From Phycisphaerae bacterium (lineage in GTDB: Bacteria > Planctomycetota > Phycisphaerae > SM23-33): a stretch of 34,748 nucleotides of DNA. The stretch lies in assembly GCA_011050235.1 (NCBI GenBank), contig DRGC01000038.1, forward strand, positions 1 to 34,748, given 5' to 3'. Each line of letters begins with the position of its first letter. Position 1 is the stretch's first letter. Of the stretch, positions 9,837 to 33,722 are shown in pieces. The notes beneath the pieces are model-generated. The model was not told the origin of the DNA and made no database searches. It was given only the letters and a program-made list of their open reading frames with translations. The translations under genes were made by a program, and so were the position numbers.

Positions 9837-9891
9837 GTGACCTGCCCGCAACTTGCCATTCGCTCGTCCCCGCCCTATTCTCGGGGCGCCC

Positions 9892-11043
9892 ATGAGCGAC
9901 AGGATATTCGAGACCGACCGGATGACGCGGCGCGAGCGGGTGGAGGCGACGCTCAACCATCAGCCGGTGGATCGCGCGGCCATCCACGAACAGGTGTCCT
10001 ACAACCCCGGCGTGATGGCGATGTATACCGGCAAGACTATCGAGGGCTTTGATTACGGCCTCGACGAGATTTGCACGGTAATAGGCCGGACGCTCGACAT
10101 GTGTTTTCCACCCTTCCCCCCCTGCGGCACGGGGCGGGTGACCAGCGACGACGGGTTTGTCTTCCAGCATGACAACTGGACCGCCTGGCGGGTCAGCCGA
10201 CCGTTTACCGACGCCCAAGGCGCACGCGACTGGCTGCTGGCCAGGACGGCGGCGCTTCGGGAGACGCCGCGGACCTCGGGGTTTGCTCTGCCGGGCCAGG
10301 AAGGTCAGCACTCGGGCGGCGGGCAGGACCTTCGCGCCGACTACCGCCGCGACATGCTCGAAACGCAAAGCAAGATCGGCGGCGCCGTGCTGTGCAATTT
10401 CTCCGGGACCGGTTTCTGCGGCGTGTTCGATGCGATGGGGCTCGAACTGTTCACCTACTTCTCCATGGACTATCCCGACGTGCTGGCCGACTACATGCGG
10501 CTGTCAACGCAGCACGAGCTGGCGCGCGTCCATGTGGCGGCCGACGTCGAGCTGTCGCCGGTCATCCTGATCCCCGAAGACTTTTCCACCAAGCAGGGGC
10601 CGATCTTCCCACCGGAGTTCCTGCACTCCCACCACTATCCGTATGTCAAGGCCCTGACCGAGGCTTGGCACGAGCATGGTGTCAAGGTCATCTACCACAG
10701 CGACGGCAATTACAAGAAGGCCATTCCCGCGCTGATCGACTGCGGGGTCGACGGTTTCTACTGCCTCGAACCGGCCTGCGGGATGGACATCGTCCAGCTC
10801 AAGCGGACCTATCCCGACATGGTCTGGGCGGGCGGTATCGACGGGGTCGACCTGATGGAGCGCGGCGAGCCCGAGGACGTCCGCGCCGAGGTGCATCGGC
10901 ACATACGCGAGAGTAATGTGCTGGCCGAGGGAGGAATGTTCATCGCCACCTCGGCAGAGATCAATCCGCCGGTCAAGCCGGAGAACTTTCGCGCGATGGT
11001 CGAGGCGGTGGGCGAACTGACCAACCCCGATTTCGCCGTCTGA
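9892..11043 (+). CDS. Uroporphyrinogen-decarboxylase-like (URO-D / MtaA superfamily) protein
   Basis: The 383-residue protein starts MSDRIFETDRMTRRERVEAT, and RERVEATLNHQPVDR matches the RERV-AALNH-PDR N-terminus of UroD-like proteins. Later features are GVFDAMGLELF, EDFSTKQGPIFPPEF, HEHGVKVIYHSDGNYKKAIP and VDGFYCLEPACGMDIVQLK, all signature stretches of the barrel. This branch is usually not the haem enzyme but belongs to cobalamin or corrinoid methyltransferase-like and catabolic-operon relatives of unknown reaction. Start choice: ATG at 9892 has only a weak upstream site; the ATG at 9922 is an alternative. It follows the GH38-like gene by 55 bases and precedes the RraA-like gene by 33 bases, so it is probably in one operon with them. 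Confidence 0.85.
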   Translation: MSDRIFETDRMTRRERVEATLNHQPVDRAAIHEQVSYNPGVMAMYTGKTIEGFDYGLDEICTVIGRTLDMCFPPFPPCGTGRVTSDDGFVFQHDNWTAWRVSRPFTDAQGARDWLLARTAALRETPRTSGFALPGQEGQHSGGGQDLRADYRRDMLETQSKIGGAVLCNFSGTGFCGVFDAMGLELFTYFSMDYPDVLADYMRLSTQHELARVHVAADVELSPVILIPEDFSTKQGPIFPPEFLHSHHYPYVKALTEAWHEHGVKVIYHSDGNYKKAIPALIDCGVDGFYCLEPACGMDIVQLKRTYPDMVWAGGIDGVDLMERGEPEDVRAEVHRHIRESNVLAEGGMFIATSAEINPPVKPENFRAMVEAVGELTNPDFAV

Positions 11044-11076
11044 GCCATAGCCCTTCAATCACAAGAGGATTCAAGC

Positions 11077-11820
11077 ATGAGCGACGCCGCCCTTTCGAAA
11101 GAAACGCTTGAACTGTTGGGCGCCTACGACACACCGACGGTCTGCAACGTCATTGAGCTGTTCAACGTTCGGCCGTGCAATAGTGGGTACATGGATTCGC
11201 GCATTCGGTCTTGTTTCCCTGATCTCCCGCCCATGGTTGGTTTCGCCGCCACGGCGACATTTCGAGCGGCCGCTCCCGCCGGTGATGACGCTTATTCGAG
11301 CTTGGAACAGCAAGCAGCGGCGTTCTCCGAACTGCCCTTCCCCCCTGTCGTCGTTTTCGAGGATCTCGACGATCCCTGCGCGGCTGCAACGTTCGGGGAA
11401 ATCATGTGCACCACGTACAAGACATTCGGGGCGGTCGGTCTGATTACCAGCGGGGCCGGGCGAGACTTGGAGCAAGTCGGCGCGCTGAAATTTCCCGTTT
11501 TCACGAACGGCACGATCTGTGCGCACGGCTACTGCCAGATTCCGTCGATACAGGTCCCCGTGCACGTTGGCGGCGTCACAGTCCATCCCGGCGACCTCCT
11601 GCACGGCGACTGCAACGGCGTAACGACCATTCCGCTGGACATCGCCTCAGATGTCGCCGCGGCCTGCGAGCCGTTCATGCGCGCCGAAGCGGTGGTGTTG
11701 GAATATCTACAGGCCGGCAGCGTTACGGCCGACGGGCTTTCACAAGCAACCGCCGAGTGCCATCGGATGATTGATGCACTTCGAGAACAAGTCGCTTCCA
11801 AGAGGACAGGAAAGCCGTGA
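11077..11820 (+). CDS. RraA-like / 4-hydroxy-4-methyl-2-oxoglutarate aldolase family protein
   Basis: The 247-residue protein carries the family's marks: an N-terminal LLGAYDTPTVCNVI helix, FGAVGLITSGAGRDLEQV (equivalent to the substrate- and metal-binding G-G-x-R-D stretch), and HPGDLLHGDCNGVTTIP (the PGD...D..GV..IP motif). Enzymes of this fold cleave 4-hydroxy-2-oxo acids to pyruvate or oxaloacetate, or act as RNase E regulators (RraA). Given the catabolic neighbours, an aldolase or decarboxylase role on a sugar-acid breakdown product is more likely. AGAGGA lies 7 bases before the ATG. Its stop overlaps the start of the sialidase-like gene by 4 bases, indicating translational coupling. Confidence 0.88.
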   Translation: MSDAALSKETLELLGAYDTPTVCNVIELFNVRPCNSGYMDSRIRSCFPDLPPMVGFAATATFRAAAPAGDDAYSSLEQQAAAFSELPFPPVVVFEDLDDPCAAATFGEIMCTTYKTFGAVGLITSGAGRDLEQVGALKFPVFTNGTICAHGYCQIPSIQVPVHVGGVTVHPGDLLHGDCNGVTTIPLDIASDVAAACEPFMRAEAVVLEYLQAGSVTADGLSQATAECHRMIDALREQVASKRTGKP

Positions 11821-19545: not shown

Positions 19546-20652
19546 TCAGCTCCGCCCGAGCAATTTCTGCGCCACCACCCTTGCCGACCATAATGGTCTG
19601 CGCAGGCAACTGTAGTAAAGGCTCTCGTAGGCCTGGCAGTCCGTCCAACAGACTGGGCATTTCCCCCGGGCAATGGTCTTGCGAAGCTCGGCGGCGCGCG
19701 GGCTTCGCCATGCGGGCAGAATGTCATAGTCGGATGAACGGACGTTCCCGATCACCGAGTCCGTCATGCTTAGGCAGGGGGTAACGTTGCCGTAGGGGCC
19801 CACCCAACAGGATGCGAAAAGGCCGTAGCAGGGCACGGGCAATCTCTGCGGCGCAGCCAGATGAGCCATGATCCCGCTGATGTAAAGCCGGGACAGGGCA
19901 AGCTTGTAGCGACGCCGCATGGCCTGGAGTGCATCCAGTATCTCGCTCTTCTCGCCCAGTGCATTGGTGCAGTGATAGCGAGCGCTGCTTTGCGCGCACC
20001 GAAAGCAGAACTTGTCGATGGACGGGATCAGTCCTTCGTTCATGACGTAATCGACCGTTTCGCTTAATTGCGAAGCATTGGCGCTGCTGAGGGTGAAACT
20101 TATCTGATGCCTGAGTTGGGGAATCTGCACGCTCAGAGCGTTCAATCGCTTCAGTAAGTCGACGGCTTTGTCGAAGGAACCGATCACCCCTCGAATTTTG
20201 TCATGTGAGGCGCCAAGCCCATCGAGCGAAACACTCACGGTGAACTGTCCGCCGGGCCGGGCGAATCGGAGGATTGTCTCGACGTCTCGGGCGACCGCCT
20301 CCGGACGTAGCGCGTTGGTCACGATGGAGACGCTGTCCAAGCGAGACACAAGCACTTTCAGCAGTTCTGTGGCGCCCTCCTTGAGAAACGGCTCGCCCCC
20401 GGTCACCTCGATCTGCCTGACGCCAGAGCGAATCGCATGCGATGCCACTTGGATCCATTCGTCAGCGGATAACTCCTTCTGCAGGCCAGCCGGGTCGTGG
20501 CGGTAAAGCTTCCAGATGTGACAGGTTGTGCACCGACTATTGCACAGATTCGTGACTTGCAGGACTAATCGCTTGGGCACAGCTCTGGGCCTGCCGCACA
20601 TGCGTCTTGCATTGACACGCACGATTTCGATGACGCCCTCAAGCACATTCAT
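19546..20652 (-). CDS. Radical SAM enzyme with SPASM-like C-terminal Cys cluster
   Basis: The start chosen is the ATG at 20652, with AGGAAGG 11 bases upstream; a GTG at 20679 would add nine residues. The radical SAM motif NLCNSRCTTCHIW gives three Cys for the 4Fe-4S cluster (C37, C41, C44 from the ATG), and VTGGEPFL is the SAM-binding GGE. A second group of Cys near the end (CYGLFASCWVGPYGNVTPC and CPVCWTDC) resembles the auxiliary-cluster SPASM or twitch domain. Such enzymes often modify peptides or sugars. It is antisense to the surrounding glycosyltransferase genes, so it has its own promoter in the gap before the flippase gene. A role in making or altering the glycan, or a small peptide, is inference. 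Confidence 0.9.
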   Translation of the reverse strand: MNVLEGVIEIVRVNARRMCGRPRAVPKRLVLQVTNLCNSRCTTCHIWKLYRHDPAGLQKELSADEWIQVASHAIRSGVRQIEVTGGEPFLKEGATELLKVLVSRLDSVSIVTNALRPEAVARDVETILRFARPGGQFTVSVSLDGLGASHDKIRGVIGSFDKAVDLLKRLNALSVQIPQLRHQISFTLSSANASQLSETVDYVMNEGLIPSIDKFCFRCAQSSARYHCTNALGEKSEILDALQAMRRRYKLALSRLYISGIMAHLAAPQRLPVPCYGLFASCWVGPYGNVTPCLSMTDSVIGNVRSSDYDILPAWRSPRAAELRKTIARGKCPVCWTDCQAYESLYYSCLRRPLWSARVVAQKLLGRS

Positions 20653-20897
20653 GCGGATGAAGACCTTCCTGCGTCGCACCGGGCGTCGAACATGCCGATC
20701 GAACGCTTCCTGGCGGGCATGAATGTACGATCATCCATCTCTTGCCGCAAGCGAGCCAATGCGTTCTGTGCGGCCGGAATCACGCGCATGTGCGGACCTG
20801 TCCCTTCACAGAGGCCCGGAATACAAATACCATGTGTCGACGATGTGAATGGACCCGGCGCCTGCGGGATCAGCCGCAGGCTGTAAGGAATACCCAG

Positions 20898-22433
20898 ATG
20901 CCCATGAGGCCCTTTGCTGTCATTCCAAAACTTCTGCGAACGCAAGGGGCCAAGCTGTCATCTGTCTACCTGGTTAGCAGCGTCGCCCAGCAACTGGCGG
21001 TGCTGCTGCTGATTCCGGTGTTCACGCATCACCTGACGACGGACGAGTACGGCCTGGTGGCGCTGTTGATGAGCATGATGTTGTTCGTCCGCGCCCTGGT
21101 CGACATGGGCCAGCCCGCCGCCCTCATTCGCTACTACTACGCCCCGCGGGAGGAGACCGAATCCCACGGTGACCTGCTGTTGTCGGCTATCGTGTTGCGG
21201 CTGGTAACGGCTGGGGTGTTCCTGGGCGCCATGTTCGTCGCGCTGGCCCCGGCGTGGGGATGGATCACCAACAACAGGCTCCCGTTGCAGCCGCATTTGT
21301 CCATCGTCCTGCTCGCCGCGGTCGGCGGAAGTGTCAACGAGCTCGTGCACACGATCTTCAAGGTCCAGCAGCGTGCCGGAGCCTACGCGGCTGTGGGCCT
21401 GCTGACGACGCTGATCCAACTCGCCTCCAGCGTTGTCTACGTCGTGGTCCTCAAGCTCGGTCCCCTCTCACCCGTGCTGGGATGCGTGACCGGATCGGTG
21501 GGCGTGGCCCTGCCATTGGTGGTCTGGTCTTTCCTGAAGCCCTCTGCCGGGCGGCTGCGCCGCGCCGTCTTCTGGCGACACCTGCGCTACGGTCTGCCCC
21601 TGGTGGGCGGAGGGGCGGCGAGATGGCTTCAGAATGGGGCGGATCGTCTCGTGCTCAACCGCGTCGCAGGCGGGTCGCTGGGGCCGTACAATCTCGGCTA
21701 CAACATGGCCTTCACGGGCATGTCGGTCATGTTCAACAGCATCGGCAACGCACTGCAGCCCATTCAGTTTCACGTGATGCAGACCCGCAAGGATTCCCCC
21801 ACCATCCTTCGCGCACTGGCGAGCGTCTATGTCGCCTTGCTGGGTGCGGTCTGCATGACGGTCGTGCTCTATGCCCGGGAACTCGTTGCGATCATCGCCC
21901 CGGCCTCCTACGCCCTGGCCGGGCGGGTCCTTCCGTTGATCGCGGTGGCCTATCTCTGTCACGGCTACTACTTGTTCGTTCGGCGCGTGCTGCTGTTCCA
22001 CAAGAAGACGGTTCTGGTCTCCGTGCTGACCATCGTCCCGTGCCTGCTGGCGTTGGCGGGCAACATTCTGTTGATTCCACGATGGGGAATCGACGCCGCC
22101 ATCTGGGTGCTCCTGGGCAGCGTGCTGGCGACGCTGGCGGCCACCTTCATTGCCGCCAGGCGCGTGGACGCGACCCGCTATCCGCTGGCGGCGATACTGG
22201 TGACGAATATCATGATCGCAGCGGCAGCCTTGTGGCTGACCTACGGGCCGGCGGAAGGGGTCACCGCAGCAGGGGTCGCCATCAAGCTGGTGGTGCTCGG
22301 CGTATACCTCGCGCTCGTCTGGATCATGTTCATACGGCCTCACGAACGAGTTCTGCTGGGCTTGTCGGCTAGCGACGGCCCGCCATCGGACAGAAACAAT
22401 TCGATCGGATCGGATCGCGATGTGATCGCATGA
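20898..22433 (+). CDS. Wzx-type oligosaccharide flippase
   Basis: The 511-residue protein starts at the ATG at 20898, supported by AAGGA 8 bases upstream. The open frame extends 52 codons further, but that part is Cys/Arg-rich and unlike the family. About 12-14 membrane helices are visible (LVSSVAQQLAVLLLIPVF; LLSAIVLRLVTAGVFLGAMF; AALWLTYGPAEG). The polysaccharide transporter hallmark TTDEYGLVALLMS follows the first helix, and ILLIPRWGIDAAIWVLLGS lies in the second half. Wzx proteins flip lipid-linked repeat units to the outer face of the membrane. Its stop overlaps the next gene's start (ATGA), so it is coupled to the double glycosyltransferase. Confidence 0.92.
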   Translation: MPMRPFAVIPKLLRTQGAKLSSVYLVSSVAQQLAVLLLIPVFTHHLTTDEYGLVALLMSMMLFVRALVDMGQPAALIRYYYAPREETESHGDLLLSAIVLRLVTAGVFLGAMFVALAPAWGWITNNRLPLQPHLSIVLLAAVGGSVNELVHTIFKVQQRAGAYAAVGLLTTLIQLASSVVYVVVLKLGPLSPVLGCVTGSVGVALPLVVWSFLKPSAGRLRRAVFWRHLRYGLPLVGGGAARWLQNGADRLVLNRVAGGSLGPYNLGYNMAFTGMSVMFNSIGNALQPIQFHVMQTRKDSPTILRALASVYVALLGAVCMTVVLYARELVAIIAPASYALAGRVLPLIAVAYLCHGYYLFVRRVLLFHKKTVLVSVLTIVPCLLALAGNILLIPRWGIDAAIWVLLGSVLATLAATFIAARRVDATRYPLAAILVTNIMIAAAALWLTYGPAEGVTAAGVAIKLVVLGVYLALVWIMFIRPHERVLLGLSASDGPPSDRNNSIGSDRDVIA

Positions 22434-24697
22434 GGATATGTTTCTTCTCATCTGGCAACAGCCTTCAGGGCGGCGCCGAACGACGCCAGGTCCAGATCGT
22501 CGGCCACTTGCTGGCGAGCGGCCATACGGTCCATGTCGTGCTCCCCGCCGCCAGTGAGCTGACGGAGAGATACCGCCGCATGGGGGCCGTCGTTCACCTG
22601 ATATACTGGCAACATCTGCGGACGCTGGCCGACCCGTTGCATGTGCTGCAGTATCTGCTGTGGATGCCGATCATCACGGTTCGCCTGGCCCGGCTGTTGC
22701 GGGCGATGCGAATCGAGGTACTCCACGTCAACGAGATTCTCGACTTTCAGGGCTTGGTGGCCGCACGGCTGGCTCGAGTCCGAAGCGTCATTTTCATTCG
22801 TTTCATTCTTCCACAGCGATGGATCCGCCGCGCGTTGGCGTGGATCGTCGTCGCCCTGGCCGACCGCGTGGTGTGTGTCTCCCAGGCGGTCCATCGGATG
22901 GCTCTGGCCGGTCGGCGCGGCCAGCGGGTGCGCGTCATCTACGATGAGCAGCCCGACGACGACCCGTTCGACCCGGCTCGGACGTCCCCGGTAATGGGCG
23001 CGGACGCGTGGGGCGGGCCCGTCGTCGGCACGGTGGCGAAGATGGTCGCCCAAAAAGGCCATCTGGTGCTGCTGGAGGTCATCGATCGCCTTCGCCGCCG
23101 GGGCTGCGGCAATCTGCAGTGTCTGATCGTTGGTGGCGCCGTGCCCGGCCATGAGGCCTACGCCGAACAGGTGCGGCGCGATATTCGACGGCGCGGCCTG
23201 GAAGAGGCCGTCCACCTGGTCGGCCAGCAGGACAACGTTGCCCCTTACCTGGCCGCCATGGATGTTGTCTGCCATTTGCCGCTGTGCGAAGACAGCTTCC
23301 CGGCCGTTCCCATGGAGGCCGCCGCGATGGGTAAGCCGGTGGTCAGCTTTCGCCGGGGGGGGATTCCCGAACAGTTGACCCATCCGGCCGCCATCAGGCT
23401 GGTCGAGCCCGGCGACATTGACGGTCTGGTCGAGCAGGTCCGCCAGTTACTGGACAATCCGGATTTGCGAAACGACATCGGCCGGCGGGCCCGCGACGAA
23501 ATACGATCCAAGTTCCCTCGGCAGCGCCACATTGAGCAGTTGGATCGGCTCTACGGGGAGCTAACCGCCCCTCGCCCTGGCCCCCAGCGCCGCCCGCGCG
23601 TCATGCGAGTGGTGCACAGCCTGGCGATTGGCGGCACGGAAAAGCAGGCCTTGGCGATCGTCGATCGGCTGCGTCATGTGGTGGATATCGACCTGGTCAC
23701 GCTGGCGGACGAGGCGGCCATGTCCGTGCCGAGTTCCTGGCGACATGTGCGACACGTCTCGCTGGGGTGCGACCACGGCGGCTGGGCCGGTTGGCGCCTG
23801 ATCCGGACGATCTGGCGGCTGTGGCGGCTGATCGTTGCCCGCCGCCCGGATCGAATCCATTGCTCACAAGTCTGGCCCAACCTTGTCGGTTGCCTGGCCG
23901 CCTTGGCGGCCGGCCGGCGCGTCTGGGTCATGTTTCACGGGCTCGGCCTGAACATTGTGGGCTCGACAGACCTGTGGGGCGTCCGCTGGGCGGCCCGGGC
24001 CGTCTATTGCCTGTGCAGGCCCAAAGTTTGGGCCCAGAGCCCGGCCACGGGGCGCTTCGCGTCGGCCCTGTTGGGAATCGCTGAGCGAAAGGTCCACCTG
24101 GCCGCCAACGGTGTGGCGATTCCCCCTCGCCCGCGACAAACGAACAGGCAGGGCCCAACCCGATTCGTAATGGTCGGTCGGCTGGTGGCCGTCAAGAACC
24201 ACGCCATGGCCGTCCGAGCGATGCGCGAGGTGCTGGATCGAGGACGCTCGGTGCACCTGCGCGTCGTCGGCGACGGCCCGGAGGGACCGGCGCTGCGGGC
24301 GATGATCGAGGCCCTGAGTCTCAGCGCCCACGTTCAACTCCTGGGCTGGAAGGCCGACGTGGCCGACCTGCTTGTTGAATCGGACGTGCTGCTCCAGCCC
24401 AGCGACAGCGAGGGGCTCTCCAACAGCGTGCTGGAGGCGATGGCTCATGGCCTGGCGGTGGTGGCTTCGGATGTGGCTGGCCTGCGCGACATCCATGCCG
24501 TCACCGACGCCTTGATCCTCGTGCCCCCCGGCGATCAGGCGGCTCTCAGCGCCGCCGTCGGACGTCTCGCCGACGACCCCGCCACGGTCGACCGCGTCGG
24601 CCAGGCCGGGCGGGAGGCTGTTGCGAGGCACTTCTCGATAGAACGCGCCGCAGCCGAGTGGGCCGACCGTTACGCCTTGCCGGCAAGGACATCATGA
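22430..24697 (+). CDS. Double GT4 glycosyltransferase (two GT-B enzymes fused)
   Basis: At 755 residues this is twice the usual length. Residues 1 to about 380 form one GT4: MRICFFSSGNSLQGGAERRQ, TVAKMVAQKGHLVLLE, and the donor-site stretch EDSFPAVPMEAAAMGKPVVS. Residues from about 390 form a second: VMRVVHSLAIGGTEKQALAI, VMVGRLVAVKNHAMAVRAM, and SDSEGLSNSVLEAMAHGLAV with the E-x7-E motif. A short Pro/Arg-rich linker (TAPRPGPQRRPR) joins them. Both halves keep their donor-binding motifs, so both could be active. It likely adds two sugars in succession to the growing repeat unit. It overlaps the flippase by 4 bases at its start, and the convergent membrane-protein gene by 28 bases at its end. 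Confidence 0.9.
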   Translation: MRICFFSSGNSLQGGAERRQVQIVGHLLASGHTVHVVLPAASELTERYRRMGAVVHLIYWQHLRTLADPLHVLQYLLWMPIITVRLARLLRAMRIEVLHVNEILDFQGLVAARLARVRSVIFIRFILPQRWIRRALAWIVVALADRVVCVSQAVHRMALAGRRGQRVRVIYDEQPDDDPFDPARTSPVMGADAWGGPVVGTVAKMVAQKGHLVLLEVIDRLRRRGCGNLQCLIVGGAVPGHEAYAEQVRRDIRRRGLEEAVHLVGQQDNVAPYLAAMDVVCHLPLCEDSFPAVPMEAAAMGKPVVSFRRGGIPEQLTHPAAIRLVEPGDIDGLVEQVRQLLDNPDLRNDIGRRARDEIRSKFPRQRHIEQLDRLYGELTAPRPGPQRRPRVMRVVHSLAIGGTEKQALAIVDRLRHVVDIDLVTLADEAAMSVPSSWRHVRHVSLGCDHGGWAGWRLIRTIWRLWRLIVARRPDRIHCSQVWPNLVGCLAALAAGRRVWVMFHGLGLNIVGSTDLWGVRWAARAVYCLCRPKVWAQSPATGRFASALLGIAERKVHLAANGVAIPPRPRQTNRQGPTRFVMVGRLVAVKNHAMAVRAMREVLDRGRSVHLRVVGDGPEGPALRAMIEALSLSAHVQLLGWKADVADLLVESDVLLQPSDSEGLSNSVLEAMAHGLAVVASDVAGLRDIHAVTDALILVPPGDQAALSAAVGRLADDPATVDRVGQAGREAVARHFSIERAAAEWADRYALPARTS

Positions 24698-25674
24698 AGA
24701 CAGATCGCTGCGGCAATGGCAAGGACAGGCCCGGCCGTATCGAAGACCTGGCGTGCGGCGTTTTGGTTTCCAGCCCAGTAGGCGCTGAGCGCGATACCCA
24801 CCAATGCGGGCAGGAATGAGGCCAGCAAGAGCGTTCGTGGCATTCGTCCAAGTCGCCAGACGGCAAGGGGGGGCAGAAATGTCAACAGCAGGACCACGAA
24901 CACGACGCACTCCAGGAAATTATACGGTAACGAGGCGATGTGCTGCCATCCAGCTTCGGGCACGTGAGTCGCAGGCCCGCCGATGACGGCTCGCCCAACA
25001 ACAAGCGTGGCTATTGAAGCGAGCGCTGCTGCGGCCATATGGATCAACGGCCTCGTTTTCAGATCTCCCTTCCGTGCGCCAAGGCACCACCCGACCATAC
25101 ACGCCGGCACGAATGCCGCCATGGAATCCTTGGCCAGTACTCCCATGATCGCCAGGGGGACCAACCAGCCAAGTCGGCCGCTCAACAGGGCCGTCAGGAG
25201 TGCACAGAAGAAGAACAACTCGCCCGCATCCACCAGACCAACCAGGATGAGATTGGCAACAAGAAAGCTGCTGACGAGCAATAGGGCCGCCACCCCGCCA
25301 ACCAGGTTGCTGTAATGAAGCCGGCGACACATAGGCAGCAGCAACGTCGCGGCCCCCGCCGTGAAGGCGGAATTGACGATCAGCATCGCCAGGAACGTGC
25401 GATCCCACTCGACAAAGCCCACTGTTGGCAGCAATGCCAGGACCCCCGCCGCCAACGCCGGCGTCAGGATGCGATATCGATGCGTTGGGTTGACCCCTTC
25501 ATCCTCGCCCCGGACCATCTGGTAATACGACTTGCTGTCAGGCTGGGCGTCGCGAGGATCAAATCGCTGCAACGTTGGGTATCCCAGGCCCAGACAGATA
25601 ACGAAAATCAGGGCGAAGATGACCAGCTCACTTCGACCTGCCAAGCCATTGAGGATAGGTCGCTGCCATTTCAT
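24670..25674 (-). CDS. Polytopic membrane protein of glycan locus (GT-C or polymerase candidate)
   Basis: The 334-residue protein has about 9-10 hydrophobic segments (first ELVIFALIFVICLGLGYP). After the first helix comes a loop FDPRDAQPDSKSYYQMVRG and then THRYRILTPALAAG. The D-S-x-x-Y-x-x-M ... YRxLxPxLA pattern recurs in poorly described membrane proteins of exopolysaccharide loci and has the topology of GT-C enzymes. It may be the locus's polymerase or a lipid-sugar-dependent transferase. Its C-terminal 28 bases overlap the end of the double GT4 on the other strand. It is 21 bases downstream of the AsnB-like gene, so it ends a three-gene minus-strand operon. No catalytic residue can be proven by eye. 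Confidence 0.7.
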   Translation of the reverse strand: MKWQRPILNGLAGRSELVIFALIFVICLGLGYPTLQRFDPRDAQPDSKSYYQMVRGEDEGVNPTHRYRILTPALAAGVLALLPTVGFVEWDRTFLAMLIVNSAFTAGAATLLLPMCRRLHYSNLVGGVAALLLVSSFLVANLILVGLVDAGELFFFCALLTALLSGRLGWLVPLAIMGVLAKDSMAAFVPACMVGWCLGARKGDLKTRPLIHMAAAALASIATLVVGRAVIGGPATHVPEAGWQHIASLPYNFLECVVFVVLLLTFLPPLAVWRLGRMPRTLLLASFLPALVGIALSAYWAGNQNAARQVFDTAGPVLAIAAAICLHDVLAGKA

Positions 25675-25695: not shown

Positions 25696-27561
25696 CTATG
25701 GGGAGCCGGAGATTCCTGAATTGTCTTCGCTTCCCGGCCGGTCAGCCAGCACATCCATGTTCAAACTGGAGATGCGCCCTTCCATGACCCATCGCCACAT
25801 CTGCCAGTAGAACAGCAGTAGCCGCGCCGGACGACCGGCCGGGCGAAACCGCAACCGGCCTTTGCGGACCGCTTCGACGCCGTCGCTGTTGAGATCGGGA
25901 TGGTCGGCCGGGATGTGAGCGATGACCGACGAGATCAAGTCCGACCTGTTCAATGCAGCCGGAAGCATCGCGCCGATGCGCTGACGCGAGGCCCGGGCGT
26001 AACGAAGCCCATAAGAGGCCAGTTCGCTCAGTCGCAGCCAGAGCCCTTTGGCGAACGGCGTGGGGCCCGGGCGGATGGGTCTCTGGCTGAAGATGGGCAC
26101 GTGCATGGCCTTGGGGAAATGCCGCTCGTAGATTCGGAAGTACAATTTTCCCTGCCACTTTATTTCCTCAGGAATTTCCCCCGTGGCCGTGCAATACGCC
26201 TTGCCGATTCCCGGCGTCAGTGGAAGCACGTCGTTGGCGTATGCCACCAGAGGATTTTGGCCTGTCCGGTTGGCCGTCCTGCTGCGGATGTGGAATCGGG
26301 TGACACCGTTCTCAGTATGCCCGTACGCATCGCGCAGTTGCCGTTGCCGCCGGCGACACTGGTCGTACATGTCTCGGGCGCGTCGGATGCCGAAGACCCG
26401 CTCGGCCGCCTGCCAGGTGGGTGAGCCCCACTCGAATCCATTGTGGCGCCAATAGGCCTCATACCCACCGAGTTGCCGGGCGGCGCCTCGACCGGGTGCG
26501 TTGATGGAACATCCCAGGCCGACGCCTTCCCATGCGGCGCGCCATTCCGGCCGGATGTAGCGGGACAGCTGCGTGACGAACAGATCGTAGCTCTGAGTGG
26601 ACACATCGGTGGCCAGGACGTAGTCGAGATAGTCTGTGGATGAGAAGAACCTTTTCGGATGAATCATCCGAACATCAAGCCCGTGGCGTTTGGCAATGCG
26701 CCGACCGTAACGGGCGTCCGCATCGAGATGATTGTAAGGATTGCTCAACGTGACGACGTTCGGACGGGCGCCGGCTTCGAGGACCAACTCCAGGATCAGA
26801 CGTGAATCGAACCCGCCGCTGAGCAGGATCGTGCCCGGCGAGACGTACTGAAGGTACTGCTGTACCTGAAATCGAAGCATGTCGACGATCGCATGGGTGT
26901 CGATGTCGTCGAGCGTCAGATCGGTCCGCACAGCGGGCCAGGGCCAGTACTCCCGCCGGTCCCACCGGTCGGTAGCGGCGTCGTAGACGATGATACTTGC
27001 GGGCGGCGACTTTCGGACGTCGGCCAACGAGGTGACCGTGTCAATGTGTTCGCCGAAGCTGATCAACGCGCCCCAGCCAAGCGGGTCCATCTGCACGTCT
27101 GTCAGGCCGCTGGCGGCGATGCCCTTCGCCTCGGTCGCCAGCAGGACAAGCCCGTCGCGCCGGTGCACGCATAGAGGCTGCATGCCCAGGCAGTCATTGA
27201 CGATGACCAGCTTGCGCCCGGCGGCGTCCCAGAAGACCGCCGCGAACGCCCCGTCCAACTCCGGCAGCAGTTTCTGGGCGCACTCGGCGTCGCCGTCGCA
27301 CACACGCTGCAGGCGCTGCTCGAGTCGCCCGTCGGGGTCGATGGGCAGGCCGGAAACCATCAGGATGTTGCCGCGCTCACTTCGGCGGAACATATCGACA
27401 TCGAGATGCCGGTCACTGGTGTGGACGCAGGCCATCGCGCCGCCATCGAACGTCGCAAGCTCGCACGTGTGCCACGCCCGGGCGCGCTGCATCTGGGCCA
27501 TCTTTCGGGCGATGGCGCCGTTGTCGGCGGCGTCGGGTCGGATGCAGACAGCGATCTTCAT
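25696..27561 (-). CDS. Asparagine-synthase-like protein lacking the glutaminase Cys
   Basis: The 621-residue protein has the two AsnB domains. The N-terminal Ntn-hydrolase-like part shows LDGAFAAVFWD (102-112) and NDCLGMQPLCV (122-132). The synthetase part has the pyrophosphate loop SGGFDSR (248-254). The true start is MKIAVCIRPD, so the Cys at position 2 that hydrolyses glutamine is missing. Such AsnB relatives (beta-lactam synthetase, lasso-peptide cyclases) adenylate a carboxyl group and attack it with an amine other than glutamine-derived ammonia. AsnB-type proteins are also known in exosortase-linked polysaccharide clusters, where they amidate sugar acids. Its start overlaps the ATP-grasp stop by 4 bases, so the two are coupled. 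Function inferred: amide formation on a surface glycan or a small metabolite. Confidence 0.85.
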   Translation of the reverse strand: MKIAVCIRPDAADNGAIARKMAQMQRARAWHTCELATFDGGAMACVHTSDRHLDVDMFRRSERGNILMVSGLPIDPDGRLEQRLQRVCDGDAECAQKLLPELDGAFAAVFWDAAGRKLVIVNDCLGMQPLCVHRRDGLVLLATEAKGIAASGLTDVQMDPLGWGALISFGEHIDTVTSLADVRKSPPASIIVYDAATDRWDRREYWPWPAVRTDLTLDDIDTHAIVDMLRFQVQQYLQYVSPGTILLSGGFDSRLILELVLEAGARPNVVTLSNPYNHLDADARYGRRIAKRHGLDVRMIHPKRFFSSTDYLDYVLATDVSTQSYDLFVTQLSRYIRPEWRAAWEGVGLGCSINAPGRGAARQLGGYEAYWRHNGFEWGSPTWQAAERVFGIRRARDMYDQCRRRQRQLRDAYGHTENGVTRFHIRSRTANRTGQNPLVAYANDVLPLTPGIGKAYCTATGEIPEEIKWQGKLYFRIYERHFPKAMHVPIFSQRPIRPGPTPFAKGLWLRLSELASYGLRYARASRQRIGAMLPAALNRSDLISSVIAHIPADHPDLNSDGVEAVRKGRLRFRPAGRPARLLLFYWQMWRWVMEGRISSLNMDVLADRPGSEDNSGISGSP

Positions 27562-28874
27562 GAATGCCCTTTGGACGGTTCAGTTACAATTTCTCCGTTG
27601 GGCGATTCCACTTCCGGTCGCTCCGGATAGATGTGCGCTCCCAACTGCTTCAGCAGCGCCTCCACGCGAAGATTGCATGTATTGTTCAGCCAGAAGACGC
27701 CATGCTGGAAGACCCAATCGTTGTTGGTGTCGTCGTAGATGTATCGTCCCAGGTTCTGGGCTTCCTGGTCGATGCCCATCGGGTTACTGGCAGCCCGCGC
27801 ACTGATGGGAGGCTCCCAGGACGTGCCGACGTACGCGTGAAGTTCGGTCACCAGCGTCCGGCCGTCCTGACAGCGGACAAAATCGACGGACAGGCTGGTG
27901 AAGCCCCCCGCTTCGGTGATCCGCCGGGTCGTGTCGAACATCTCCATCGGCGGACAGCGCCACGCCCACAACAATGAGCCGCTGTGGAACTGGCCGATCG
28001 GCAGTTTCTGATAGCCGATGTAGCTGTCGCCGATGCGCATCACGCGCCATTCCTCGATGCCGGGGAGGTACTCCTGGAAGATGACACACCCGCGCTGGCG
28101 GTCACGCGGATCACAGCCACGTCGGGCCACCCCCGCCGCGAAGCTCCGCCGGACGTGCCCCAGGAGCTTCCTGCGCTTGCGGAAGATCCACACGCCGCTG
28201 GAACTGGAGCCCAGGTCGCTCTTGCAGACAATCGGCAGATCGGCCTCGCCGGCCAGCGCCAGCGCCGCGTCGCGATCGTCGAAGATCCACGTCCGGGGCT
28301 GGACAAATCCATGCTCGTCAAGCCATTGATAGACGCGTCGCTTGCTCTCGTAGAAATAAAGGCATTCGGGCTCGGGGTAGACGACCTTGCCCATCTCCTC
28401 GGTCATCACTCGGATGCGACGGTCGTAAAGATCCTTCCAATGGGCCCGATGGACCGACGGGCGGACGAGAAACGCGTCGCACTCGCTCCGCTCGATCGCC
28501 GAGCGCCAGTCCGGCTGGAGAATGTCCACCAGGCGATAGGGCACGCCAAGATCGCGGCAAGCGGCGATGAAATGGTGGTGCAGGTGCGTCACCTCCCGGA
28601 CGATCCCGATCCGCACATCCACGCGGGCGGGATAGGTCGATTCGTCGGGATCATTTGCAAAAGGATTGGCGGCTGCCCATATGTTCGCCTCGACGGCGCC
28701 ACGGTCGACCAGGCGCCAAAGCAGCGTCTTTAACCACTGCGGCAGCGCCCGCTGAATGCGGCGCGAGCCGCCGATCCGCGCCAGAAGCCCGGCGCCGCGC
28801 ACCTTGGCAGCGGCTGAACGACTGGACGTCACATTGGTCTGGGAAGCGGTCATCGCGTCGATTGGCCGGCCCAT
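27558..28874 (-). CDS. ATP-grasp ligase-like protein
   Basis: The 438-residue protein has a pre-ATP-grasp part (RIGIVREVTHLHHHFIAACR, about 88-107) and an ATP-grasp fold with the nucleotide loop CKSDLGSSSSGVWIFRKRR from K218 on, then VIFQEYLPGIEEWRVMRIGD (adenine and hinge) and VDFVRCQDGRTLVTELHAY (D331, E344). ATP-grasp enzymes activate a carboxylate as an acyl phosphate and join it to an amine or thiol. The usual metal-binding E-x-N reads E-L-H (H346), so metal binding may differ. The last ~50 residues carry no domain I recognise. The first gene of a minus-strand operon, it is coupled by a 4-base overlap to the AsnB-like gene. Start at 28874 is weakly supported; M8 is an alternative. Confidence 0.8.
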   Translation of the reverse strand: MGRPIDAMTASQTNVTSSRSAAAKVRGAGLLARIGGSRRIQRALPQWLKTLLWRLVDRGAVEANIWAAANPFANDPDESTYPARVDVRIGIVREVTHLHHHFIAACRDLGVPYRLVDILQPDWRSAIERSECDAFLVRPSVHRAHWKDLYDRRIRVMTEEMGKVVYPEPECLYFYESKRRVYQWLDEHGFVQPRTWIFDDRDAALALAGEADLPIVCKSDLGSSSSGVWIFRKRRKLLGHVRRSFAAGVARRGCDPRDRQRGCVIFQEYLPGIEEWRVMRIGDSYIGYQKLPIGQFHSGSLLWAWRCPPMEMFDTTRRITEAGGFTSLSVDFVRCQDGRTLVTELHAYVGTSWEPPISARAASNPMGIDQEAQNLGRYIYDDTNNDWVFQHGVFWLNNTCNLRVEALLKQLGAHIYPERPEVESPNGEIVTEPSKGHS

Positions 28875-28992: not shown

Positions 28993-29889
28993 ATGATGTT
29001 TCGCCAGAATCCTGCCACTGACATGGAGAATGCCTCTTCAACACGATCGGGAGCCAAACCGTCCTTACGGGATTTTTTCACAGCCGCGGAAAAGTGGAAG
29101 TCAACGACGGATCGTTGGGTTTATCGCTACCTGTTTCGCCCCTGGACTCCCTATCTGAGTTGGGCCCTCTGTCGCCTTGGCCTGTCGGGCAATGGGGCAA
29201 CACTCTTGGGCGGCGTGTGCCTGATTGTGGGCGCCGTGTGCCTGTCCGGTCCCTGGCCGGCGGCCTGGATAATCGGAGCGGCGCTGGGGCTGTTCCATGT
29301 GGCCTTCGATGCGTGCGATGGGGAGATCGCCCGCGTTCGGCGCGAGGCCGGGGCCGCCGGCGATAAGGGCATGACGGGTTATTACCTCGACACCCTGATG
29401 CACGGCCTGGAAACATCGCTGGCGGCCGGCATCGGCTATCGGCTGTATGTGACCAGCCACATGGGCGTCTGGCCTCTGATACTGGCGGCGGCGGCGATGG
29501 TGGCCGTGTGCACGGCCCCCTATCTGGCGTACTGCAAGACCCTGTCGGTCTGGCTGGGCAAGCACGGGGAAAACCCAGATGATGTTCATACGCTAATGGG
29601 CTTTGTCCGGGGCGAGCCGTCGATCATCTCCGAACAGCGGCGCGATGAGATCGTCTCACTGCGACGATGTCTACTGTACCTCAAGCAGACGTTGACGACG
29701 CCGGGATACTTTCTCACGTTGCCGCTGGCCGTCTGCCTGGATGTGTTTGTCGGCCCCCTGGCGACCAGCGGGGACGTTGTCATTTCCTGGCGATTTATCT
29801 GGCTGGCGGTTTATGTGGCCGGTAAGGTATTGTATTCGCTGTATTGGGGCGCCCGTCTGGCGGTGAGGTTGCGGGAGCTTCCCGCATGA
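28993..29889 (+). CDS. CDP-alcohol phosphatidyltransferase family membrane protein
   Basis: The 298-residue integral membrane protein has the family core DACDGEIAR (106-114) inside a helix-rich segment. The expected D-x2-D-G-x2-A-R ... G-x3-D-x3-D motif reads D106, D109, G110, A113, R114, G129, D133, then His137 instead of the last Asp. The gap between R114 and G129 is longer than the usual eight residues. The family transfers a phospho-alcohol from a CDP-alcohol to a second alcohol (phospholipids, inositol phosphates, choline headgroups). The fourth Asp is the proposed base, so the His is notable. A cytidylyltransferase-like gene follows 57 bases later, giving a donor-plus-transferase pair. 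The likely result is a phosphodiester-linked decoration of a lipid or glycan (inference). Confidence 0.88.
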   Translation: MMFRQNPATDMENASSTRSGAKPSLRDFFTAAEKWKSTTDRWVYRYLFRPWTPYLSWALCRLGLSGNGATLLGGVCLIVGAVCLSGPWPAAWIIGAALGLFHVAFDACDGEIARVRREAGAAGDKGMTGYYLDTLMHGLETSLAAGIGYRLYVTSHMGVWPLILAAAAMVAVCTAPYLAYCKTLSVWLGKHGENPDDVHTLMGFVRGEPSIISEQRRDEIVSLRRCLLYLKQTLTTPGYFLTLPLAVCLDVFVGPLATSGDVVISWRFIWLAVYVAGKVLYSLYWGARLAVRLRELPA

Positions 29890-29946
29890 CGATTCGATTG
29901 TCGGCCGTAATCGAGCGTTGGCCCTGCTTGTGGAGACATTAGGACC

Positions 29947-30654
29947 GTGAAGGTAATCATTCTGGCAGCGGGACAGGGGGGGCGGCTGCGGCCATTAACG
30001 GCGGACAGGCCCAAATGCATGGTCCAGGTCAACGGGCGGACGATTCTGGACTATCAGTTGGATGCCCTGGCCCAAGCCGGCCTCACTGACGTGACTATTG
30101 TTATTGGGTATCGCGGCGACACGATTCGTGACCACGTCGGCTGGCGATGCCGGTTCATCGTCAATGAAGCATTCGAGACGACCGACAATATGTACTCGCT
30201 GTGGCTGGCTCGCGATCTCGTCGCGGGGGAGGCGTTTGTCTTCTGCAACAGCGACGTGATCGTCGAGGCGTCCATGATTCGAGACCTTGTGAATTGCCCG
30301 CACAGCTCGGCCATGTTGGTCGACACCGAAAAAGAGTTGTCCACCCGCGAAACGAACCTCGTCATCGAGAACGGCTGGGTTACGGAGTACCACAGGGACA
30401 TTCCCCTCGACCGGGCCAATGCCCAAGGCCTCTTCACGGTGAAACTGGGCGCCGAGGGGTCGAGGCTGCTTTTTGAGAGGATCGACGAGTTTGTCCGAGG
30501 AGACAGCCTCAACTATCACCCTTCAAGAGCTTTCGACGCTGTCCTCCCGACCGTCCCCGTGGCGCCGATCGACGCCAACGGTCGCCCTTGGTTCGAGATC
30601 GACACGTTGGAGGATCTGGCCGACTGCCGGCGGAGGCTCGGTCAGCGCGGGTGA
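29947..30654 (+). CDS. LicC/IPCT-like sugar- or alcohol-phosphate nucleotidyltransferase
   Basis: The 235-residue protein starts with GTG and reads VIILAAGQGGRLRPLTADRP, then KCMVQVNG: the G-x-G-x-R-x-x-P-x-T ... R-P-K loop of nucleotidyltransferases. Next come NEAFETTDNMYSLWLA, the acceptor-region stretch of choline- and inositol-phosphate cytidylyltransferases, and FVFCNSDVIV with metal-binding D103. Length and motifs fit LicC-type enzymes, which make CDP-choline, or inositol-phosphate cytidylyltransferases, which make CDP-inositol. Its position behind the CDP-alcohol phosphatidyltransferase suggests that it makes that enzyme's CDP-linked donor. The alcohol (choline, inositol, glycerol or other) is not readable. 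Confidence 0.88.
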   Translation: MKVIILAAGQGGRLRPLTADRPKCMVQVNGRTILDYQLDALAQAGLTDVTIVIGYRGDTIRDHVGWRCRFIVNEAFETTDNMYSLWLARDLVAGEAFVFCNSDVIVEASMIRDLVNCPHSSAMLVDTEKELSTRETNLVIENGWVTEYHRDIPLDRANAQGLFTVKLGAEGSRLLFERIDEFVRGDSLNYHPSRAFDAVLPTVPVAPIDANGRPWFEIDTLEDLADCRRRLGQRG

Positions 30655-30811
30655 CCTTTCGCAGCCCTTCCCCGCCCCGAAACCCCTTGCTTTTGCGCGC
30701 GGCGAAGCTCTAGACTCAATGTCCCGGTTGCTGCCGCGGGCTCTCACAATTGCCGCCATTCTTGCCGAAAGATCTGCGTCATTCGCCAATCCGGCGCCCA
30801 GGAGTGTGGCT

Positions 30812-31801
30812 GTGTACGAAAGCAGGACCATTGCTGTTGTCATACCGTGTTTCAACGAACAGGACAACATCGTCAACGTCCTGACGAAGATCCCGGACTT
30901 TGTTGATGCGGTCGTTATTGTCGATGACGCCAGCACCGACGACACGGCCCGGATCGTCGACCAACAGATCGCCCGGGAGGGGGACTCCTGCCGAACGGTC
31001 CTGCTTCGTCGCGAGCAAAACGGCGGGCCCGGCGCTGCAGTCATTACAGGCCTGACCGAATGTTTGCGGAGGGATTACGACATTACGGCCGTGATGGACG
31101 GCGACGGGCAGATGAACGCCCAGGAGTTGCCCTGGTTGATCGGCCCGGTGGCCCAGGGCCAGGCCGATTACGCCAAGGGAAACCGCTTGTTCTATCGAGG
31201 AGCGTGGCAGCGAATTCCGCACAGCCGCTATCTGGGGAACGCGTTTCTGTCGATGCTGACCAAGATCGCCAGCGGCTACTGGCACGTGGCGGATTCGCAG
31301 TCGGGGTACCTGGCCATCAGCCGAGAGGTGCTCGAGACGATCGATCTGCAGAAGATCGACACGGGCTACGGGTACACCAACGACTTGCTGGTCCATTTGA
31401 ACGTCTACGACTTTCGCGTCGCCGACGTGCACGTTCGGCCCATCTATTGGCCCCAGCGGCAGTCGAAAATGAAGGCCTGGATAGTCTTCCCTCGCCTGAA
31501 CTGGATGGTGTTCAAGCGGTTCTGGTGGCGCATGTGGCGCAAGTACGTCATTCACGACTTCCATCCGCTCGTGCTGTTCTATTTCGCCGCAACTCTTTCA
31601 GGCTTGGCGGCGACAGGTCTGTTTGTGCGCCTTGTCTGGCTGTGGATCGCCACCGGCTCGATCCCGCGCGTCAACGCCCTGGTGTGGGTCCTGTGCACGC
31701 TCAGCGCGATCCAATTAGGGCTGTTCGCGATGTGGTGCGACATGGAGGCCAATCGCGACCTGAAGTGTGTCCCGCGCCGCCGCCTCGGCCGATCCCGCTA
31801 A
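30812..31801 (+). CDS. GT2 polyprenyl-phosphate-type glycosyltransferase with C-terminal membrane helices
   Basis: I chose the GTG at 30812 because AGGAG lies exactly 7 bases upstream and the GT2 fold then begins at once (TIAVVIPCFNEQDNI); an ATG at 30719 would add 31 residues with no ribosome site. Motifs are VIVDDASTDDT (35-45), GGPGAAVITGL, MDGDGQMN (D96/D98, metal-binding D-x-D), and DSQSGYLAISREVLETI. Two hydrophobic helices end the 329-residue protein. This is the layout of dolichyl/polyprenyl-phosphate sugar synthases (DPM1/GtrB-like), which make lipid-linked sugars used by GT-C enzymes. It could feed the GT-C-like protein at 14550-16217. Confidence 0.88.
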   Translation: MYESRTIAVVIPCFNEQDNIVNVLTKIPDFVDAVVIVDDASTDDTARIVDQQIAREGDSCRTVLLRREQNGGPGAAVITGLTECLRRDYDITAVMDGDGQMNAQELPWLIGPVAQGQADYAKGNRLFYRGAWQRIPHSRYLGNAFLSMLTKIASGYWHVADSQSGYLAISREVLETIDLQKIDTGYGYTNDLLVHLNVYDFRVADVHVRPIYWPQRQSKMKAWIVFPRLNWMVFKRFWWRMWRKYVIHDFHPLVLFYFAATLSGLAATGLFVRLVWLWIATGSIPRVNALVWVLCTLSAIQLGLFAMWCDMEANRDLKCVPRRRLGRSR

Positions 31802-31939: not shown

Positions 31940-32170
31940 TGCCGCTTTGTGCGACATTGGACAATCGAATTGACAGGCCCCGGCGGCAGTGCTTCAATTG
32001 GTTCGGTTGTCGGGCAAGAATCTTCAGTTTCCCGGGGGGTCTCCCCACACAGAAGGGAGCAAGGAAATGAAACGCGTGCTATTAGTTGGGCTGGGCATCC
32101 TTCTTGTCATCGGCGCAGTAAATGCGGCAGATACGGATACCGGCAGCCAGACCTTCAACTCCGACCTGTC
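31940..32170 (+). repeat. Duplicated promoter, leader and 5' coding unit of LRR gene 1
   Basis: From about 31950 to past the signal peptide this stretch is closely similar to 33972-34200. Shared blocks include CAGTTTCCCGGGG, CACACAGAAGGGAGCAA and GCGGCAGATACGGAT. The duplication therefore included the promoter and ribosome site as well as the gene. Confidence 0.85.
31970..31998 (+). promoter_or_regulatory. Sigma-70-type promoter of LRR gene 1
   Basis: A perfect -35 TTGACA (31970-31975), a 17-base spacer and a -10 TTCAAT (31993-31998; 4 of 6 matches). The same hexamers and spacing are kept in the second gene's copy, while spacer bases differ. Transcription would start near 32005, about 60 bases before the ATG. 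Confidence 0.6.
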
Positions 32171-33722
32171 ACTGGACGTCTACATGAAGACGTTGGATGG
32201 GGATGACGAATGGGTCGGCACCACGCCGTCTGGAACTCCCCTTGAGATTCCGGAATCCCAGTACTGGTTTGTGATGCCACGTGGCCCTGTAGACATGGGC
32301 AAGCTGAGCCAGGAAGTCCTTTCAAAACGTGTCCCCGGGCTGAGCTTGCCGAAAGGCACAGTCGATGATGACCTGGCCCACCTGAAAGGCCTGACAGGCT
32401 TGCAGACGCTCATCCTCGCCAGCACAAAGGTCACGGATGCGGGGATGGCGCACCTGAAAGGCATGACGGGCTTGCAGCGGCTCGACCTCACCAACACAGA
32501 GATCACGGATGCTGGCCTGGCTGACCTGAAAGGCCTGACGGGGCTGCAGACGCTCAGTCTCAGCATCACAAAGATATCGGATGCGGGCCTGGCCCACCTG
32601 AAAGACCTGACAAGCTTGCAGGACCTCCACCTTGCCGCCACAGCCATCACGGATGCCGGGCTGGCGCACCTGGCAGGCCTGACGAACTTGCAGAGGCTCA
32701 TCCTCTTCGGCACAAAGATCACGGATGCCGGGCTGGCCCACCTGAAAGGCATGACAGGGCTGCACGTGCTCATCCTCGGCGGGACGAAGATATCGGACGC
32801 GGGGCTGACCCACCTGAAAGGCATGACAGGGCTGCGTATGCTCGGCCTCAGCGGCACGAACATCTCGGGCGCGGGGCTCGTACACCTGAAAGACATGACG
32901 GGCTTGCAAAGGCTCTACCTCGATGACACAGAGATTACGGATGCGGCTCTGGCCCACCTGAGTGGCCTGACGAGCTTGCAGCAGCTTTGGCTCTATGAGA
33001 CAGACATCACGGATGCGGGCCTGGAACACCTGAAAGGCCTGACAGGGCTGCAGAGGCTCGGCCTCACCAGCGCAAGGATCACGGATGTGGGGCTGGCCCA
33101 CCTGAAAGGCCTGACGGGGCTGCGGCTGCTCAACCTCTACAAAGCAAAGATCACGGATGCCGGGCTGGTCTACCTGAAAGGCCTGACAGAGCTGCGTGTG
33201 CTCGTCCTCAGCGGCCCAGACATCACGGATGCAGGCCTGACCCACCTGAAAGGCCTGACGAGCTTGCGGAATCTCGTCCTCTTCGGCACGAACATCACGG
33301 ATGCCGGGTTGGTCCACTTGGTGGGCATGACGGGTTTGCGGGAGCTCGACCTCAGCGAGACGAAGATCACAGATGCGGGGCTTACCCACCTGAAGGGCAT
33401 GACGAGCTTGCAGGAGCTCCGCCTTAGCGACACAAAGATCACGGATGCTGGGTTGGCACGCCTGAAAGGCCTGACGAGCTTGCGAACGCTCGAACTCCAC
33501 GACACGGACATCACGGATGCGGGCCTGGCCCACCTAGCGGGCATGACAGGCTTGCAGCGACTCTACCTCCGCAACACGAACATCACAGATTCGGGGTTGG
33601 CCCACCTGAAAGCCCTGACGGGCTTGCAGCATCTCAATATCTTCTACACAGACGTCACGGATAGGGGCCTGCGCGAACTGCGAAAAGCACTTCCGGGAAC
33701 CCGCATTAACTCCTTCCCCTGA
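32067..33722 (+). CDS. Secreted leucine-rich-repeat protein 1 (551 aa)
   Basis: The protein has a signal peptide (MKRVLLVGLGILLVIGAVNA, mature end near ADTDTG), then a region of about 85 residues with DVYMKTLDGDDEWVGTTPSG, then 17 LRR units of 24 residues plus a C-terminal cap ending at GTRINSFP. The unit is close to TGLQxLxLxxTxITDAGLAHLKGL, a repeat abundant in Planctomycetes. Many units share near-identical stretches, showing growth by unit duplication. The solenoid is a binding scaffold, probably for protein or glycan ligands outside the cytoplasm or on the cell surface. There is no PEP-CTERM tail or membrane anchor. The start is the ATG at 32067 preceded by AAGGGAGC. A paralogue follows in tandem. 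It has no visible enzyme motif. Confidence 0.93.
   Translation: MKRVLLVGLGILLVIGAVNAADTDTGSQTFNSDLSLDVYMKTLDGDDEWVGTTPSGTPLEIPESQYWFVMPRGPVDMGKLSQEVLSKRVPGLSLPKGTVDDDLAHLKGLTGLQTLILASTKVTDAGMAHLKGMTGLQRLDLTNTEITDAGLADLKGLTGLQTLSLSITKISDAGLAHLKDLTSLQDLHLAATAITDAGLAHLAGLTNLQRLILFGTKITDAGLAHLKGMTGLHVLILGGTKISDAGLTHLKGMTGLRMLGLSGTNISGAGLVHLKDMTGLQRLYLDDTEITDAALAHLSGLTSLQQLWLYETDITDAGLEHLKGLTGLQRLGLTSARITDVGLAHLKGLTGLRLLNLYKAKITDAGLVYLKGLTELRVLVLSGPDITDAGLTHLKGLTSLRNLVLFGTNITDAGLVHLVGMTGLRELDLSETKITDAGLTHLKGMTSLQELRLSDTKITDAGLARLKGLTSLRTLELHDTDITDAGLAHLAGMTGLQRLYLRNTNITDSGLAHLKALTGLQHLNIFYTDVTDRGLRELRKALPGTRINSFP
32391..33650 (+). repeat. 72-bp coding repeat array (LRR units) in gene 1
   Basis: About 17 tandem units of 72 bases. 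Each unit carries a version of CACCTGAAAGGCCTGAC and of ATCACGGATGC. The array is coding throughout, so it is an LRR solenoid and not a CRISPR. Confidence 0.9.

Follow-up and report, generated by a model that had tools for sequence, protein, structure and literature searches.

What would an ATP-grasp ligase and a relative of asparagine synthetase that can no longer use glutamine do side by side in a glycan locus? The question is raised by two genes of a Phycisphaerae bacterium, here called ATPG and ASNB, which lie in the window, that is, the whole stretch of 34,748 nucleotides analysed in this work. The window is one whole contig (DRGC01000038.1, G000:C38) of a 4.0-Mb genome assembled in 98 contigs. 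An original prediction, made from the letters of this DNA, saw in the two genes an amide-forming pathway. The explanation favoured here, with a chance slightly better than even, is that ATPG forms an amide on a surface glycan and that its Cys-less AsnB partner contributes to this reaction or the one that follows, with no hydrolysis of glutamine. The pair is made up of the following features.

27558-28874, minus strand: ATPG, a 438-residue ATP-grasp protein resembling amino-acid ligases, first gene of the pair (AlphaFold2 model, fold comparison, invariant residues)
25696-27561, minus strand: ASNB, a 621-residue homologue of asparagine synthetase whose glutaminase domain is dead, encoded second in the pair (Lys at position 2, fold, lost glutaminase residues)
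27558-27561, minus strand: ATGA, stop/start overlap that couples ASNB to ATPG (sequence)
26800-26820, minus strand: codons of the pyrophosphate loop (PP-loop) SGGFDSR, ASNB residues 248-254 (sequence and alignment)

The observation of an overlapping pair of ATP-grasp and Cys-less AsnB genes is correct. The two genes share 4 bases, as had been predicted, both open reading frames are real, and their codon-position GC pattern is that of the neighbouring genes. ASNB begins with MKIAVCIRPD and has Lys at position 2, where the glutamine-hydrolysing AsnB family (TIGR01536) has a catalytic Cys after Met. An alternative start giving Cys at position 2, which would have undone the predicted loss of this residue, was looked for and is excluded: an in-frame TGA lies 7 codons 5' of the start (TGA ACC GTC CAA AGG GCA TTC ATG), no start codon occurs between that TGA and the ATG of ASNB, and the codon preceding Cys6 is GTC, which is not a start codon.

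To judge from its predicted structure, the first protein of the pair has the architecture of carboxylate-amine ligases. A Pfam scan of ATPG gave no family at an E value of 0.1. An AlphaFold2 model made with 52 homologues, with a predicted local distance difference test score (pLDDT) of 86.8, matches LysX (3vpd, Z 23.6), ArgX (3vpb, Z 23.6) and RimK (Z of approximately 22) over some 270 residues. The LysX/RimK-like fold, the pair of ATP-binding Lys residues and the acidic metal ligands place ATPG in the ATP-grasp superfamily, and residues K178, K218, E275, R277, K290, D331, E344 and R403 are invariant across the 52 homologues. The amide-forming role proposed for this protein is thus supported by its fold and by an intact set of Lys, Lys, Asp and Glu, features that it shares with LysX, ArgX and RimK. 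It differs from these enzymes in its extra N- and C-terminal parts and in its score against the RimK family model TIGR00768 (31.2 bits, cut-off 143.4), on which membership of that family was rejected.

The second protein keeps the shape of a glutaminase and has lost its chemistry. The N-terminal half of ASNB has the class II glutamine amidotransferase fold (Pfam GATase_7, 5e-8), and in the predicted structure this domain matches the glutaminase domains of GlmS and PurF with a Z of approximately 17, so the Ntn amidotransferase fold is kept. Apart from the nucleophile, the conserved glutaminase Arg, Asn, Glu and Asp are also lost (A44, S70, P73 and a gap, at positions that are identical in 15 of 15 full-length Cys-containing AsnBs); the glutaminase is dead and cannot hydrolyse glutamine. 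Elsewhere the domain has disappeared altogether: the AsnB homologues of loci L140, L143, L148, L157 and L169 (425-426 residues, Crocinitomicaceae-type pairs) lack the entire glutaminase domain, carry the PP-loop at residue 74-76 and overlap ATPG by 4 bp.

The model of the whole ASNB protein matches TsnB9 (Z 29.8), E. coli AsnB (1ct9, Z 29.3) and beta-lactam synthetase (Z 27.1), and its Ntn glutaminase-like and PP-ATPase folds assign it to the AsnB structural superfamily; the Pfam match to Asn_synthase is sub-threshold (15.5 bits, cut-off 21). The pyrophosphate loop is kept as had been read from the sequence: the SGGxDS motif (SGGFDS, residues 248-253) is followed by Arg instead of Ser. Among 40 non-redundant Cys-less homologues the loop has the form [ST][GSD]GxD[SGTC], with Arg next to it in 39, and its second Gly and its Asp are invariant in all 40; in the Cys-containing AsnBs the residue after the loop is Ser, Ala or Asn, not Arg. 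Row-by-row inspection of the alignment revealed that most Cys-less AsnBs retain the Glu of GxxGSE and that in many of them a Lys occurs within T[DN]KGY, one residue off the usual C-terminal Lys, the loss of Lys being limited to the window ASNB and some others. Because these residues are retained, most members of the Cys-less family look like working ATP-binding enzymes.

Several known families were considered for ASNB. Its best NCBIfam match is TIGR03104, the amidotransferase of the N-acetylglutaminylglutamine amide (NAGGN) pathway (1.4e-16, 59.9 bits, cut-off 570.1), and it remains below the cut-off of TIGR01536 as well (58.6 bits, cut-off 267.1). A NAGGN pair was rejected on the first of these scores and on the absence of a TIGR03103 match for ATPG. 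Rejected too were the XrtA/PEP-CTERM amidotransferase TIGR03108 (59.9 bits, cut-off 816.9), the cyclases of lasso peptide or ikarugamycin type (NF033535 and NF033561; 33.9 and 26.9 bits, cut-offs 525 and 300) and a defence system, since PADLOC gave no match for ATPG or ASNB.

Is the pairing peculiar to the window? Conserved neighbourhoods of this kind, which the original prediction had named as a way to check it, occur in at least five phyla (Planctomycetota, Verrucomicrobiota, Bacteroidota, Ignavibacteriota and Aminicenantes), where ATP-grasp and Cys-less AsnB genes lie side by side. A scan of GTDB genomes with the single window ATPG sequence gave no matches, and one with an alignment of eight ATPG sequences yielded 80 loci, with relatives across many phyla. 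In the class (397 genomes searched), ATPG has seven clear orthologues in other families, 35-44% identical in the alignment. The matches listed contain no ATPG relative from the window's own family, in which nearly all AsnB matches have the Cys and lie in loci where no ATPG was found. Among the 80 loci, 27 besides the window have a Cys-less AsnB homologue at most 100 bp from ATPG on the same strand. With the window included, 28 full-length pairs are listed; 25 are at most 70 bp apart, and 8 (7 of the 27 others) overlap by 4 bp, three and two of these being near copies. Adjacency within 100 bp is a property of the Cys-less AsnBs (27 of 44) rather than of the Cys-containing ones in the same loci (1 of 14; Fisher p 4.6e-4), the baseline for all genes of these loci being 114 of 1041.

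ATPG and its AsnB partner have correlated evolutionary distances (Mantel r 0.72, with a permutation maximum of 0.29), a correlation that shared descent alone could produce. The Cys-containing AsnBs form one clade and the Cys-less ones several deep lineages; a single clade of all Cys-less AsnBs is neither shown nor rejected (approximately unbiased test, p 0.58). The starred branches of the ATPG tree carry at least ten changes in the presence of an AsnB upstream and at least four downstream, and pairs are found in both gene orders. That such pairs were assembled repeatedly speaks for a functional link between the genes, and the one in the window may have come together independently of the others.

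The place beside ATPG is also taken by other proteins. An octopine/nopaline dehydrogenase adjoins it in 11 loci (L097, L098, L099, L101, L103, L106, L107, L108, L110, L127, from Pseudoalteromonas luteoviolacea, and L129), none of which has an adjacent Cys-less AsnB, and this suggests that the glycans of those organisms contain opine-type amino acids. With AsnB absent, a FemAB-type transferase adjoins ATPG in L150, L154 and L166, and a CapA/PGA_cap protein in L114. CapA/PGA_cap, AsnB and ATPG occur as triples in L116, L125 and L144, the first of which, from the isolate Brumimicrobium oceani C305, is a clean polysaccharide operon (CapA-AsnB-ATPG-Wzy_C-GT4-(ATP-grasp)-WecB). In L116, CapA lies at 7101-8231, AsnB at 8244-10004 and ATPG at 10001-11128. 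Octopine dehydrogenase, FemAB and CapA families are all linked to amino acids or peptides. The CapA proteins may carry out amino-acid chemistry at these loci, of which the weak match of the L114 homologue to the model of the lasso-peptide epimerase MslH is a hint.

The relatives are consistently found inside glycan loci: their neighbours include Wzx, Wzy, Wzz, glycosyltransferases, a uridine diphosphate (UDP)-sugar dehydrogenase and WecB, and the ATPG loci are glycan clusters of the Wzx/Wzy type. The glycan locus that had been recognised in the window, with its flippase and glycosyltransferases, agrees with them. The genes around the pair are these.

19546-20679, minus strand: radical S-adenosylmethionine (SAM)/SPASM protein inside the glycan locus (Pfam; weak prokaryotic-viperin match in PADLOC, 1.8e-9)
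20742-22433, plus strand: Wzx-type flippase (Pfam, NCBIfam)
22430-24697, plus strand: double GT4 glycosyltransferase (Pfam, NCBIfam)
24670-25674, minus strand: 334-residue polytopic membrane protein, possibly co-transcribed (approximately nine hydrophobic segments)
28993-31801, plus strand: divergent glycan-type genes for a cytidine diphosphate (CDP)-alcohol phosphotransferase-like protein, a sugar nucleotidyltransferase and a GT2 glycosyltransferase (Pfam, NCBIfam)

The membrane protein that had been seen after the AsnB gene is indeed there, 21 bp from ASNB, with a weak match to the cell-surface glycopolymer model NF046093 (21 bits, cut-off 150), but as a part of the module it does not hold, having no homologue near ATPG elsewhere. 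The CDP-alcohol phosphotransferase, the nucleotidyltransferase and the SPASM radical SAM protein were set aside likewise, not being conserved near ATPG in other loci; the GT2 gene does not accompany the pair elsewhere either.

Taken together, these observations allow a mechanism to be proposed. ATPG would phosphorylate a carboxylate and link it, on a building block of the surface glycan, to an amine; in this way either a uronic acid could receive an amino acid or amine, or an amino sugar could receive an amino acid. The Cys-less AsnB may carry out an amidation with free ammonia or an amine, and not glutamine, in the step of ATPG or the one after it; alternatively, it could be a non-catalytic helper of ATPG. 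A wider form of this proposal, possible though it should be held tentatively, is that the AsnBs with the loop [ST]GGxD[SG]R are functional enzymes whose PP-loop chemistry has changed, and that with ATPG and its swappable partners they make up a modular, cross-phylum system for writing amides on glycans. In it, AsnB, opine dehydrogenase, FemAB and CapA would be exchanged in one partner slot, and the groups written would be amide-linked amino acids or opines.

Such chemistry has precedents. Bacterial glycans with amide-linked and opine-type amino acids on their uronic acids or amino sugars have been described (PMC10609480). In the peptidoglycan of Lactococcus lactis, the ATP-grasp D-aspartate ligase AslA and the asparagine synthase AsnH form a two-protein scheme of ligase, then amidase; this system differs in acting on peptidoglycan and not on a polymer of a glycan locus, in that aslA is in an operon with racD, and in that the window partner lacks the glutaminase nucleophile (PMC4155827). 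The capsule locus of Campylobacter jejuni encodes the glucuronamide ligase Cj1438C, likewise an ATP-grasp enzyme of a glycan locus that makes an amide on a sugar carboxylate, but it is a TupA-like domain of a glycosyltransferase fusion and no AsnB partner is described there (PMC11800379). No TupA-like match was returned by Pfam for ATPG. The pairing itself was found without description in the open-licence literature, so the original statement that the pathway is not described holds for the pair, and not for envelope decoration by a ligase plus an asparagine synthase, of which AslA/AsnH and Cj1438C are earlier cases; the module looks undescribed there, yet it belongs, as a variant, with ligases already known to act on envelope polymers.

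A number of points weigh against the proposed partnership. The proximity of genes is no proof of a shared step. On the tree, the proteins with which the window ATPG groups are planctomycete ones lacking an AsnB partner; AsnB is therefore not obligatory. Family Gln346, nearly invariant, is His in the window ATPG; the usual metal-ligand pattern of ATP-grasp enzymes is E-x-N, instead of which ATPG has E-x-Q/H. Among the genes of the window, none was recognised as forming a uronic acid. As for ASNB, it is an orphan on a long branch, with identities of at most 20%, and its acidic motif is eroded (GRGAARQLGGY, against GEGSDEVFGGY in E. coli AsnB), the last Glu being replaced by Arg as in the AsnB of L104. 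Alignment places no Lys near residue 493, in a stretch of low pLDDT where the alignment is uncertain. Binding at the ATP site by this copy is plausible; its catalysis, that is, adenylation, is doubtful, because the acidic GxGxDE motif and the C-terminal Lys, both present in the intact Cys-containing homologues, are lost. The claim of two carboxylate-activating ligases in one operon is accordingly weaker for its second member.

These losses count in favour of a rival view: that AsnB is a pseudoenzyme or a regulatory or structural partner of glycan synthesis, that ATPG alone makes the amide and that the window ASNB no longer activates a carboxylate. Many loci have ATPG without AsnB, Crocinitomicaceae-type pairs do without the whole glutaminase domain, and the last Ser of the PP-loop has become Arg nearly throughout the family; a family with an invariant Gly and Asp in that loop, most of whose other paired members keep the GxxGSE Glu and many the T[DN]KGY Lys, makes this a minority view, although one of some weight. 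That the two genes are mere neighbours without a shared function is unlikely. Gene shuffling is frequent in glycan loci, which commonly hold AsnB homologues of every kind, and the closest relatives of the window ATPG lack the partner, but chance proximity does not agree with the preference for Cys-less over Cys-containing AsnBs in the same loci, with overlapping genes in several phyla, or with the repeated changes of state upstream and downstream of ATPG.

Other products have to be considered besides a decorated glycan. A secreted small amide or peptide, made by chemistry like that of beta-lactam synthetase, carbapenam synthetase, lasso cyclases or graspetide ligases, is suggested by the AsnB fold without the glutaminase Cys that ASNB shares with the beta-lactam and carbapenam synthetases, by the relation in fold between ATPG and the graspetide ligase PsnB, and by the SPASM radical SAM gene at 19546-20679. 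It is very unlikely: the lasso-cyclase scores are far too low, the SPASM gene does not travel with the pair and is probably a general SPASM enzyme, and 20 neighbour proteins of L116, L125, L112 and L104 gave no Pfam match to the leader-binding or protease components of ribosomally synthesised and post-translationally modified peptides. From the beta-lactam and carbapenam synthetases the window ASNB differs in lacking the acidic motif, in having Arg for the last Ser of the PP-loop and in lying in no small-molecule cluster; alignment shows no active-site Lys, in a region that is poorly modelled. A cytoplasmic small amide, an osmolyte like NAGGN, is highly improbable. The NAGGN arrangement pairs an AsnB homologue with a GNAT/ATP-grasp ligase (asnO, TIGR03104, and ngg, TIGR03103), and TIGR03104 is the best NCBIfam match of ASNB; the pair of the window nevertheless falls far short of the one model and does not match the other, has no Cys with which to use glutamine, and has its relatives in glycan loci. 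Like ASNB, the members of family TIGR03108 are homologues of AsnB encoded in exopolysaccharide loci; that family carries an amidotransferase annotation, and ASNB scores far below its cut-off.

If the preferred explanation, a glycan amide formed by ATPG with a Cys-less AsnB, is correct, it suggests a widespread and apparently undescribed route by which surface polysaccharides acquire amino-acid-like groups. In many bacterial polysaccharides, charge and immune recognition are shaped by amino acids in amide linkage, and to our knowledge few of the ligases have been identified. The cross-phylum signature (ATPG plus Cys-less AsnB, opine dehydrogenase, FemAB or CapA) would allow such decorations to be predicted from genomes, and it would add to the AsnB relatives a large group without glutamine hydrolysis, outside the lactam synthetases and lasso cyclases.

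Minor observations concern the rest of the window. The double GT4 gene and the membrane protein gene, on opposite strands, have the last 28 bases of their 3' ends in common (24670-24697). At 28993-30654, on the plus strand and transcribed away from the pair, the CDP-alcohol phosphotransferase-like gene is accompanied by a nucleotidyltransferase gene whose product resembles inositol-phosphate and phosphocholine cytidylyltransferases, which suggests a phospho-alcohol substituent on the glycan. The genes of the window are GC-rich and PEP-CTERM proteins are encoded among them; like the planctomycete relatives of ATPG, both features point to a planctomycete. A leucine-rich-repeat protein of 577 residues is encoded at 31989-33722 (plus strand), and the open reading frame at the contig end (34203-34745, minus strand) may run antisense to a further stretch of leucine-rich repeats.

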